64,000 bases of DNA from Clostridium sp. BNL1100 (GTDB lineage: Bacteria > Bacillota > Clostridia > Acetivibrionales > DSM-1351). The notes under the pieces are model-generated. The model saw only the letters and a list, made by a program, of their open reading frames with translations, was not told the origin of the DNA and did not search any database. This document shows positions 23,857 through 59,126 of the stretch, piece by piece; position 1 is the stretch's first letter, and each line of letters starts with the position of its first letter. Position numbers and translations under genes: made by a program. The stretch lies in assembly GCF_000244875.1 (NCBI RefSeq), contig NC_016791.1:849501-913500 (forward strand). The letters run 5' to 3'.

Positions 23857-24025
23857 TTGTAAACTGGAAGCACATATGGTAATATATGGTTATAAAATTT
23901 TATTTTTTAGTAGGCAACGATGCCAATTCTGTATTTTAATCAGAATTGGCATTTTTTATATTTATATATAACCAATACTTGGCAATGACGCCGGTTTCCG
24001 TGAGGAAATCCGGTGTTTTTTATTT
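23857..24025 (+). promoter_or_regulatory. ANTAR-type antitermination leader of the PII-1/Amt-1 operon (two modules)
   Basis: Promoter TTGTAA (23857-23862), 17 bp, TAATAT (23880-23885). Module 1: hairpin GGC-AACGAT-GCC (23913-23924), whose 3' arm is the start of a terminator stem (23922-23931 with 23941-23950) followed by TTTTTT. Module 2: hairpin GGC-AATGAC-GCC (23981-23992), overlapping a second terminator (23989-23999 with 24004-24015) followed by TTTTTT. Both six-base loops have A at position 1 and G at position 4, the known ANTAR recognition rule. Binding would favour the small hairpins and block termination, opening transcription of the ammonium genes. Confidence 0.8.
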
Positions 24026-24054
24026 TTATCAATAGATTAAGGAGATGAGTTTTT

Positions 24055-24393
24055 ATGAAAAAAATCGAAATGATTATCAGACCCGAAAAGCTGGAAGATG
24101 TGAAGGAAATATTAAATGAATCACAAATATTCGGTATGACGGTGTTAATGGTTTCAGGCTGCGGGCATCAAAAGGGAAGAAAAGAAATATACAGAGGCGC
24201 CGAGATTACAATAAATCTTCTTCCTAAAGTAATGGTTCAAACTGTTGTCCACGATGATGCAGTCGAGAAAATAATACAAAAGGTTACAGAGAGGGTTAAA
24301 ACAGGTAACGTAGGCGATGGAAAGATTTTTGTGTATAACGTTGAAGAAGCTGTGAAAATAAGAACAAGTGAGAGTGGTGAAGATGCAATATAA
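24055..24393 (+). CDS. PII signal transduction protein (GlnB/GlnK family), copy 1
   Basis: 112 residues. The T-loop is GCGHQKGRKEIYRGAEI with the conserved Tyr46, and the B-loop is TGNVGDGKIF, which binds ATP/ADP. PII trimers read 2-oxoglutarate and energy state and plug Amt channels when nitrogen is plentiful. It is the first gene of an operon with a small membrane protein and an Amt transporter, and its leader carries ANTAR-type attenuators. The stop overlaps the next start by 11 bases. Confidence 0.95.
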   Translation: MKKIEMIIRPEKLEDVKEILNESQIFGMTVLMVSGCGHQKGRKEIYRGAEITINLLPKVMVQTVVHDDAVEKIIQKVTERVKTGNVGDGKIFVYNVEEAVKIRTSESGEDAI

Positions 24394-24652
24394 AAAAGCT
24401 TTTATTATTTTACTGACCGCATTGTCAGCAGGTATATGCCTCTCAGGTATATTTTTCATTTTTTACAGCTGGATAAACGATATAACCTTCAAAGTAATAA
24501 ACACAAATGTCTCCGGGATATTATTCGGCGTGGCTGTTGTATATCTGGGGTTCAGATACCTGCTTTCGGTTTTAAAACTAAAAAAAGAGCTATATAAGGA
24601 AACTTCAGTATTTTCATGGAGCAATTTCAGAAAACAAAAGACTGCGAGATAA
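24383..24652 (+). CDS. small two-helix membrane protein of unknown function
   Basis: 89 residues starting MQYKKAFIILL. Two hydrophobic segments lie at about 5-30 and 45-65, followed by a basic tail (LKLKKELYKE...FRKQKTAR), so both termini are probably cytoplasmic. It starts inside the last codons of the PII gene, implying translational coupling, and ends 46 bp before Amt-1. I do not recognise a family. The position between PII and Amt suggests an accessory to the channel or its regulation (inference). Confidence 0.65.
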   Translation: MQYKKAFIILLTALSAGICLSGIFFIFYSWINDITFKVINTNVSGILFGVAVVYLGFRYLLSVLKLKKELYKETSVFSWSNFRKQKTAR

Positions 24653-24698
24653 GCAAACAGTTTATATATTAAAATTCAGAATGAAATGGGGGATAACG

Positions 24699-57497: not shown

Positions 57498-57533
57498 AAA
57501 AAACCATGGCACATAAAATATGCCATGGTTTTT
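57498..57533. terminator. bidirectional terminator between rluA-type gene and gdhA
   Basis: AAACCATGGCA (57501-57511) with TGCCATGGTTT (57521-57531), flanked by A and T runs; the two genes converge. Confidence 0.9.
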
Positions 57534-57555
57534 CCATTTTATATGAGGGTTTGGG

Positions 57556-58893
57556 TTAGTATGCAACACCTTGAGCGTACATAGCATTAGCAACCTTTAG
57601 GAAGCCTGCAATGTTAGCACCGGCAACAAGATTGTCTTCCATTCCATACTCTTTTGCAGCAGCACTTGCGTTCTTGTAGATATTAACCATAATATCTTTG
57701 AGTTTCGCATCAACTTCTTCAAAAGTCCATGAGTAACGAGCGCTGTTCTGACACATTTCGAGAGCAGAAGTTGCAACTCCACCTGCATTTGCAGCTTTAG
57801 CAGGTCCATAAATAATCTTATTGTTGAGGTAAACTTCAACAGCTTCAGGAGTTGAAGGCATGTTTGCACCTTCGCCAACTGCGTAGCAGCCGTTTGCTAC
57901 CAATAATTTAGCTGAAGCTTCATCTATTTCGTTCTGAGTAGCTGAAGGAAGAGCGATATCACACTTAATGCTCCAGATACCTGAACAACCTTCAGTATAA
58001 GTTGCGTTCTTGTGAATCTTAACATACTCACTGATACGCTTTCTTTCAACTTCTTTAAGCTGCTTAACAGTGTCAAGCTTAATTCCATCTGGATCATAGA
58101 TGTATCCGTTTGAATCACTTAATGCAACAACTTTTCCACCTAATTCATGTACTTTTTCAGTAGCGTATATTGCAACGTTACCTGAACCGGAAACAACTAC
58201 TGTAGAACCCTTGAATGATTTACCCTTAGCTTTTAATGCTTCATCCATAAAGTAGCAGAGGCCGTAACCTGTAGCTTCAGTACGAGCAAGGCTTCCGCCC
58301 CAAGTTAATCCTTTACCTGTGAGAACACCTGTAAATTCATTTCTCAATCTCTTGTATTGTCCGTACATATAACCGATTTCTCTTGCGCCTGTTCCGATAT
58401 CACCTGCAGGAACGTCAGTATCAGCACCGATATGCTTTGATAATTCTGTCATAAAGCTCTGGCAGAATCTCATAACTTCAAGATCGGATTTTCCTTTAGG
58501 ATCGAAATCACTACCACCCTTACCACCACCGATTGGAAGGCTTGTTAATGAATTTTTGAATATTTGTTCGAAACCAAGGAATTTGAGGATACTTACATTA
58601 ACGGAAGGATGAAGTCTTAAACCACCCTTATAAGGACCAATTGCACTGTTGAATTGAATTCTGAAACCACGATTTACATGTACCTTACCATTGTCATCAA
58701 CCCAAGGTACTCTGAAAATGATTTGTCTTTCTGGTTCTACTATTCTGTCGAATATACCTGCTTCGACCCATTCAGGATGTCTCTCGGCAACTACCTCAAG
58801 AGAATCGAGAACTTCTTTTACTGCCTGATGAAATTCTGGTTCGCCAGGATTTCTTTTAATAACCTGATCCATTACTCTTTGTAATATTTTCAT
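57556..58893 (-). CDS. gdhA: glutamate dehydrogenase, hexameric NADP-type
   Basis: 445 residues. Glutamate-binding and catalytic segments are [29 protein letters not shown] and [16 protein letters not shown]. The nucleotide fold has [17 protein letters not shown]. Length and sequence match the roughly 50-kDa hexameric enzymes used for ammonia assimilation. GGAGG is close to the ATG. A 200-base leader with a strong promoter precedes it. It gives a second, ATP-independent route to glutamate beside GS-GOGAT. Confidence 0.96.
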
Positions 58894-59052
58894 CTAAATA
58901 ACCTCCTGCTATGTATTTAATTATTAAGTATTATTTGGTGACAGGAGATATTTAGTCATGGCAATTTGAAACAAAAGTTACAAAAAATACCTTTTATAAG
59001 CTAACATACGCGCCTAGAATTTAATATAAAAGAAAGACATGTAAGTTAAACT

Positions 59053-59126
59053 GCATACTCCATTGTACACCAATTATTAACTTTTTTCGCCTCTCATATT
59101 ATATCATCAGGCTATTTATTATGCAA
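59053..59126 (-). promoter_or_regulatory. gdhA promoter and candidate ANTAR hairpin
   Basis: Minus strand: TTGCAT (59121-59126), 17 bp, TATAAT (59098-59103). Twenty-eight bases below the -10 is hairpin GTGTAC-AATGGA-GTATGC (59053-59070), a 6-bp stem with two G-U pairs and an A1/G4 loop. A terminator-like stem CTTTTATA/TATAAAAG followed by TATTTTTT lies further down (about 58980-59036), but it does not overlap the hairpin as clearly as in the other leaders. Confidence 0.45.

Follow-up and report, generated by a model that had tools for sequence, protein, structure and literature searches.

Hexaloop-terminator leaders of nitrogen genes and a putative ANTAR reader in Clostridium sp. BNL1100

Introduction

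The closest described system to the one presented here is that of the eut leaders of Enterococcus faecalis, with the regulator EutV and its kinase EutW. We compare with it a 64-kb stretch of Clostridium sp. BNL1100 (G000:C1:849501-913500, from a genome in a single contig of 4.61 Mb; "the window" hereafter means this whole stretch), where leaders of nitrogen genes carry small hairpins with a six-nucleotide loop (hexaloops) and where a protein with an ANTAR domain is encoded. According to Ramesh et al. (2012; PMC3369931), the published ANTAR target is a dual hairpin (P1 and P2), deletion of P1 abolished induction by EutV, and swapping the two closing pairs also led to its loss. The paper on the 2022 EutV structure (PMC8934654) gives one hexaloop as the minimal site, yet has antitermination proceed via successive contact with both. 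The leaders of the window share with the eut leaders the ANTAR output domain of the putative reader, the sequence-specific closing pairs, a hairpin predicted to exclude an intrinsic terminator and, apparently, the conservation of hexaloop positions 1 and 4, and the P2 loops of eut follow about the same RANGR rule. They differ in that EutV/EutW combines P1 and P2 with a phosphorylatable receiver and a kinase, whereas here there is one hexaloop per terminator and an Asn in the receiver.

Regulons of nitrogen genes under ANTAR control were already predicted in 2012 (PMC3369931). They covered PII, Amt, the synthases of glutamate and glutamine, and nitrogenase, and the genome of Desulfotomaculum acetoxidans had no fewer than 13 elements. 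A perspective (PMC3369936) makes largely the same proposal; a dedicated RNA-level nitrogen regulon is an idea that is already known. The regulons described in 2012 for D. acetoxidans, D. reducens and Pelobacter carbinolicus share with ours several nitrogen operons with ANTAR-type leaders, but the model used there demands a dual hairpin, whereas ours are without P1 and extend to gatCAB and an antiporter. We did not find this P1-free form in print as a class of terminator leaders, in a comparison that stops short of Tables S1 and S2 of PMC3369931, where overlap with related species is possible; on clostridial or single-hairpin ANTAR leaders, we found nothing beyond the 2012 and 2022 papers.

The architecture of a receiver-like domain joined to ANTAR is also that of AmiR (Pseudomonas) and Rv1626 (Mycobacterium). 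AmiR acts on one operon via AmiC, unlike the multi-operon set considered here, and in Clostridium saccharobutylicum an ANTAR-type protein, NitR, is encoded beside glnA.

Hexaloop hairpins and terminators in the window

A preliminary description of this DNA had reported ten small hairpins in eight leaders, and all ten were recovered on re-scan with the loops that it gave. On the basis of their sequences, these leaders are very probably ANTAR-controlled transcription antiterminators, with the protein encoded at 51630-52214 as their reader. The hairpins are as follows (free energies, ΔG, in kcal/mol; positions are those of the window).

23913-23924 (+): hexaloop ggcAACGATgcc, PII-amt leader, module 1; loop AACGAT at 23916; terminator ~23919-23960, ΔG -17.5
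23979-23994 (+): hexaloop ttggcAATGACgccgg, PII-amt leader, module 2; loop AATGAC at 23984; terminator ~23987-24025, ΔG -18.5
28198-28213 (-): hexaloop cttccAACGAGggaag, antiporter leader; loop AACGAG at 28208; terminator ~28172-28205, ΔG -12.8
37461-37472 (-): hexaloop gacAATGGAgtc, asnB leader; loop AATGGA at 37469; no U-run in this genome
41365-41384 (-): hexaloop gtgaaacAAAGGCgtttcac, glutamine synthetase (GS) III leader; loop AAAGGC at 41377; terminator ~41322-41374, ΔG -21.1
44756-44775 (-): hexaloop atgcagcAAAGGTgctgtgt, gatCAB leader; loop AAAGGT at 44768; terminator ~44711-44765, ΔG -19.2
45048-45063 (+): hexaloop agaacAATGGCgttct, glutamate synthase-glnA-ANTAR leader; loop AATGGC at 45053; terminator ~45056-45107, ΔG -20.4
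52283-52296 (+): hexaloop cagcAATGAGgctg, amt-PII leader, module 1; loop AATGAG at 52287; strong downstream stem, ΔG -17.6, with an imperfect U-run
52373-52384 (+): hexaloop cacAATGGCgtg, amt-PII leader, module 2; loop AATGGC at 52376; terminator ~52379-52423, ΔG -14.0
59053-59070 (-): hexaloop gtgtacAATGGAgtatgc, gdhA leader; loop AATGGA at 59064; without proper terminator, doubtful member

As had been claimed, six leaders have an intrinsic terminator that takes in the 3′ arm of the hairpin and, in most cases, loop bases 4-6 as well; these terminators could be located at ΔG -12.8 to -21.1. When the overlap was tested by script (requiring an AANGRN hexaloop, pairing of its 3′ arm into a stem that ends at a T-run, and ΔG ≤ -11), seven of the ten hairpins passed, the failures being those of asnB and gdhA and the one at 52287, with its imperfect U-run. 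Across the 13 own-genome modules found by script, the predicted terminator pairs all three of loop bases 4-6 in 10, two of the three in two modules and none in that of gatC. The protein and the terminator would therefore compete for the same G4, which may explain the purine at loop position 5.

Eight of the window hairpins have a ΔG of only -0.4 to -6.8 kcal/mol, against -12.8 to -21.1 for the terminators, so that termination would be the default and a bound protein would be needed to overcome it. In the proposed mechanism, the nascent leader folds by default as an intrinsic terminator, whose 5′ arm would take in the 3′ arm of the hexaloop and usually loop bases 4-6. The active ANTAR protein would bind the C-[RANGRN]-G hexaloop, keep the hairpin folded and block the terminator, with read-through as the outcome. 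Each terminator would be served by one hexaloop, with no upstream P1 of the eut, nas or ami type, and some leaders would be two modules in series. We infer the binding by the ANTAR protein, the resulting read-through and nitrogen limitation as its condition, whereas the sequences, their conservation, the overlap with terminators, the absence of a P1 in our scans and the single ANTAR gene are directly observed.

The genes concerned in the window, with their Pfam assignments for the six targets, are these.

24055-26273 (+): PII, a small open reading frame (ORF) and Amt, target
26906-28165 (-): Na+/H+ exchanger-family antiporter, target
39178-41271 (-): glutamine synthetase III, target
41412-44634 (-): gatC-gatA-gatB, target
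45185-51574 (+): glutamate synthase genes and GS I (glnA), target, 5′ of the ANTAR gene
51630-52214 (+): ANTAR protein gene, 194 amino acids from 51630, degenerate receiver plus ANTAR domain, end of the glt-glnA-ANTAR run
52429-54108 (+): Amt and PII, target

The list of controlled genes first proposed stands for the nitrogen-gene leaders with a competing hexaloop, but not for GS I (glnA, 50249), which has no hairpin leader of its own in this genome. It is flanked by the glutamate synthase genes and the ANTAR gene, no T-run terminator was seen in the gaps inspected within this run, and from this arrangement GS I could be controlled solely as part of it. Moreover, the eight leaders do not correspond to the genes that were named, since two of them, asnB and gdhA, were left out among the controlled genes; these two have no overlapping terminator, and their standing as equal members of the set is not supported.

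The ANTAR protein

The ANTAR gene lies where it had been placed and is the sole ANTAR match in the whole genome. The protein matches PF03861 (E 9.5e-19) and, weakly, the receiver family PF00072 (E 3.7e-7); its ANTAR domain scores 67.4 and 70.5 bits, above the curated cut-off of 27.3. An alternative start, the ATG at 51645, has a better Shine-Dalgarno sequence than 51630. By sequence it matches the PDB entries 1s8n ("putative antiterminator", 6e-17), which we take to be Rv1626 of Mycobacterium, EutV 6wsh (5e-13) and AmiR 1qo0 (8e-5). Of the EutV residues that contact the hexaloop, Arg142, Lys149, Glu160 and Met172 align with identical residues and Tyr164 with a His (read from an alignment whose chain numbering is two above that of the paper).

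The receiver is degenerate. Its phospho-acceptor Asp is replaced by Asn in this protein and in those of nine congeners (9/9 genus proteins aligned, plus that of G003), and the acidic pair is replaced by Cys-Ser in the 4 aligned rows reaching that column, as also in G003 and G001 when read 5′ of the first ATG. The acceptor residue in 21 other aligned members of the order is Asp in 14, Glu in six and Asn in one, and the acidic pair is absent there too. Judged by its residues, the protein thus lacks both marks of a phospho-activated response regulator of the EutV type, the acceptor Asp and the acidic pair. A histidine kinase family was not found among the 35 window ORFs scanned (19-62 kb), the rest of the genome not having been searched for a partner. 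Since the receiver has no phospho-acceptor Asp, a protein or ligand signal seems likelier than a kinase; our guess, from the linkage to glnA and PII, would be glutamine synthetase or PII as the informant. The position of the ANTAR gene in the glt-glnA run also makes autoregulation possible. The degenerate receiver and the absence of P1, which is a real departure from the published target, are the two features that the preliminary description missed.

Conservation in the genus

We sampled ten congeners, nine with one ANTAR match each and one, G002, without, and scanned their leaders with a generic AANGR hairpin pattern. A hexaloop precedes GS III and gatC in all nine ANTAR-bearing congeners. 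It also stands before glt in the 4 congeners with glt at the locus and directly before glnA in the other 5; the switch therefore precedes whichever gene comes first. The asnB hairpin was seen in all 8 congeners where the gene was found and the gdhA hairpin in the 4 with the leader covered. The PII-amt modules ggcAACGATgcc and ttggcAATGACgccgg are both kept in G005 and G009. The antiporter hairpin is present, as AATGAG, in three of the four congeners with the gene (G005, G009 and G006); it was not seen before the G003 homologue, and the stretches of the remaining five gave no antiporter gene.

All 45 distinct genus hairpins (as 20-mers) have the closing C-G, A2 and G4, an invariance that is partly due to selection (closing pair included), as the 20-mers were gathered with patterns set after looking. 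In the amt hairpins of G003 and G004, loop position 1 is G. Covariation of the stem was compared with shuffles: cells with changes on both sides numbered 96 against 43.2, and the covariation score was 0.614 against 0.233, with 0/500 shuffles as high in either case, which supports the stem without proving it.

Members outside the 35 kb

The regulon had been described as linked within 35 kb, which did not hold, given that the NifH gene, anfO and two more Amt leaders lie elsewhere in the genome. A search of the genus with a hairpin model, a check suggested in the preliminary description, gave 12 own-genome matches at E ≤ 10 (five in the window, seven outside) with 150 of the 285 candidates scored, and was fruitful in one instance: the match gaacAATGGCgttc has a perfect overlapping terminator (ΔG -25.2), and the downstream gene then turned out to be an ammonium transporter (Pfam). 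By family search, all four Amt genes of the genome are under a module leader, namely the two in the window, amt4 and one within a 562-residue open frame that matches both Amt and PII and whose leader has two modules. Extended to three genomes, the same search gives 8/8 Amt genes with a module (own 4, G005 3, G001 1). Two modules, gacGACGAAgtc and agacGATGAGgtct, stand in the leader of the closest NifH gene and one, gtgcAACGGGgcgt, before the divergent anfO gene; a module precedes the closest NifH in 8 of the 10 genomes.

In total, we count 14 modules in 10 leaders of this genome (13 by script plus 52287), a lower bound rather than an unbiased census, as the loci outside the window were chosen for their nitrogen genes. 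The targets would thus comprise the four Amt genes with PII, GS III, glutamate synthase with GS I, GatCAB, the antiporter, and the NifH gene with the divergent anfO.

The AANGRN rule first proposed describes all ten window loops but fails elsewhere in the genome, as some loops there begin with G, and we widened it to R-A-N-G-R-N with a C-G closing pair. Of 75 modules chosen by RANGRN, 61 have A and 14 have G at position 1, G4 (75/75) being fixed by that selection. Nor is it supported that the rule is stricter than the published A1/G4, as had been stated, given that nif and amt loops may start with G and that the eut P2 loops follow nearly the same one; these too are approximately R-A-N-G-R-N with a C-G closing pair, with A2 in 36 of 39 P1-bearing modules. 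RANGRN looks, from these loops, to be general to ANTAR sites and not special to the nitrogen regulon.

Other families of the order

We took twenty stretches, each surrounding an ANTAR gene and up to 20 kb long, from families of the order other than that of the window. Eight of these stretches hold a strict module each, located before glnA (3), GS III (2), glutamate synthase (1), an asnB-like gene (1) and the ANTAR gene (1), and looser matches stand before amt genes and one glnA. These stretches also hold hexaloop-terminator matches elsewhere, with non-conforming loops. The nearest matched gene 5′ of ANTAR on the same strand is glnA in nine of the twenty. The hairpin model run on 21 far-family ANTAR loci with 1.5-kb flanks gave a best E of 0.093, and a terminator scan of these short loci showed little, the 20-kb stretches being required. 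The proposal of a dedicated RNA-level nitrogen regulon is thus in part supported by the single ANTAR gene, the hexaloop-terminator leaders and their recurrence in nine congeners and in 8/20 far-family neighbourhoods, though not in its confinement to 35 kb.

Weighing of the ANTAR reading

Several results weigh against ANTAR control of these leaders. EutV Tyr164, which stacks on G4, is aligned with a His in our protein. In two of the five covariation measures, the pairs with both-side change and the pair types, the genus hairpins were not above the shuffles (488/500 and 413/500 as high). The 20-nt hairpin model is a weak finder, with a best own-genome E of 0.26 (among the candidates scored), and six of its seven matches outside the window were rejected as chance-like, being coding or without terminator. 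No recognisable module was found in the nifH leaders of G001 and G008, nor at another 12 NifH-like loci in the genus (L176 of this genome among them), nor before the third free-standing PII (L142) and the second GS III (L061), and 12 of the 20 far-family stretches gave no strict module. Finally, the asnB and gdhA hairpins have no proper terminator in this genome and are nevertheless kept in the ANTAR-less G002.

asnB, gdhA and the ANTAR-less congener

The genome of G002 is one contig and 99% complete. It gave no ANTAR match, no Amt by family search and no NifH above 53% identity, and of a joined query the part for glutamate synthase was left unmatched. Its single glutamine synthetase is of the GS III type and stands at the place of the second-GS III match, GS I and the first GS III being gone. 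The gatCAB genes are kept, and at the syntenic place gatC follows an agmatinase-type gene, without a leader module. Such a loss of the reader together with nearly all of its targets supports the existence of the regulon, and G002 (L070, G002:C1:2926000-2945500) is a natural knock-out of most of it. It keeps gdhA and part of asnB, hairpins included.

The asnB and gdhA hairpins, perhaps with others, could then be read by another factor or at another step, the ANTAR protein owning the terminator leaders alone, a division to which we give even chances. Besides their survival in G002 with rule-conforming loops and their lack of a proper terminator in the window genome, it is favoured by the asnB leader, where a conserved hairpin, GGGACAAT/ATTGTCCC (~37443-37474, -), competes for the 5′ arm of the hexaloop and loop bases 1-3, in a mirrored arrangement. 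Among congeners this competitor shows a paired change from GGGACAAT/ATTGTCCC to GAGACAAT/ATTGTCTC; it was not seen in G001, G008 and G004. On the other side, the asnB and gdhA loops obey the same C-[RANGRN]-G rule, the asnB-like gene of another family (L200) has a canonical module, the asnB hairpins of G003 and G007 are followed by a U-rich run, and the gdhA hairpins of G005 and G009 pass the scripted terminator test. The hairpins surviving in G002 may have another role, or the loss of ANTAR there may be recent.

Past codon ~472, the asnB gene itself (31321-37401, -) is split by an insert of ~4 kb that encodes a large serine recombinase, an MFS transporter and a MarR regulator. Inserts of ~4 to 12 kb split it at this codon, or close to it, in G005, G006 and G003; it is continuous in G009, G001, G008, G004 and G007, and the 19.5-kb G002 stretch gave no C-terminal part of it. 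Codon ~472 marks a recurrent attachment site that is perhaps reversible.

The absence of P1

Ordinary dual-hexaloop leaders, in which P1 has degenerated and been missed, would be an alternative to a single-hexaloop switch. The eut, nas and ami targets that PMC3369931 describes are all dual, and our tandem leaders (PII-amt, amt-PII, the amt-PII fusion and nif) do carry two hexaloops each; here, however, every hexaloop comes with a terminator or terminator-like stem of its own. We scanned the 55 nt 5′ of each hexaloop and counted a P1 if it ended within 20 nt, taking as reference 44 eut modules from 24 of the 80 loci found with EutV as query. A P1 was found in 33 of these 44 and in none of the 13 own, 54 genus and 8 far-family modules (one far-family site has a hexaloop at a distance of 32 nt); Fisher's test of the eut modules against the own and far-family modules together gives 2e-9. 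A hand-picked list of 27 sites gave one P1, at the same far-family site. The scan is not fully sensitive, since the other 11 eut modules were also without P1.

The distance to candidate promoters, which are consensus matches and not mapped starts, bears on the same point. The amt4 promoter is TTGACA-17-TATTAT with 8 nt to the stem, and the distance from a good -10 box to the stem is 7 nt in a far-family glnA, 10 nt in a glt and 10 nt in a GS III leader, which leaves no space for P1. In these leaders the hairpin would begin at about the predicted start site. Missed P1 hairpins are, with this evidence, an improbable explanation. In the same weighing, the effect of the P1 deletion on EutV speaks against the single-hexaloop reading: by analogy, one hexaloop might be too weak unless our ANTAR protein differs.

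On balance, we lean towards a P1-free class of ANTAR leaders, with one hexaloop per terminator (in some leaders the first ~20 nt of the transcript), in which a single non-phosphorylatable ANTAR protein would govern a large share of nitrogen metabolism: nitrogenase genes, ammonium uptake and PII, both glutamine synthetase types, glutamate synthase and glutamine-dependent tRNA amidation. Several families of the order would share this switch, and one congener would have lost the reader together with nearly all targets. EutV genetics makes P1 indispensable whereas the 2022 structure makes one hexaloop the minimal binding site, and natural single-hexaloop terminators, in many copies and some with the hairpin at the predicted +1, would make this conflict directly testable. 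The leaders also suggest that targets of one class escape searches for dual hairpins, and that nitrogen in this order may be under an RNA-level master switch.

Enrichment over chance

As a control for the script, we used 33 stretches of 20 kb (660 kb) from the same genome. It found 7 AANGRN hexaloop-terminators in the 64-kb window against one, weak, in the control, where a threshold of ΔG ≤ -6 yields four weak cases. Hexaloops of any sequence over terminators number 33 in the window and 189 in the control, so that the comparison is 7/33 against 1/189 (Fisher p = 6e-6), a value that is partly circular as the motif was defined on the same window; the independent test of the motif is its recurrence in other genomes. 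A plain scan of the window also gives further AANGRN hairpins, most of them weak and outside leaders, and the hairpin alone is therefore not significant.

That the hexaloops are incidental, at the base of ordinary terminators or attenuators (riboswitch, T-box or ribosome-based), is very improbable, for even though the motif is short, hexaloops over terminators are common and the hairpins individually weak, the loop letters recur across ten genomes while stems change, the 660-kb control gave its single weak match, all eight strict far-family modules precede nitrogen genes or ANTAR, and no Rfam family falls on the hexaloop leaders at gathering threshold.

Neighbouring features

At these thresholds, Rfam gave in the whole window the guanidine-I riboswitch alone (89.3 bits). 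It is located at 26364-26847 (-) before a small multidrug resistance-family transporter, and the two are probably ordinary guanidine export. An aliphatic-sulfonate/NMT1-type binding protein (22861-23841) and an ABC ATPase with its permease (28378-29866) flank the block formed by PII-amt, the riboswitch and the antiporter, which looks as if it had been inserted into one transporter operon.

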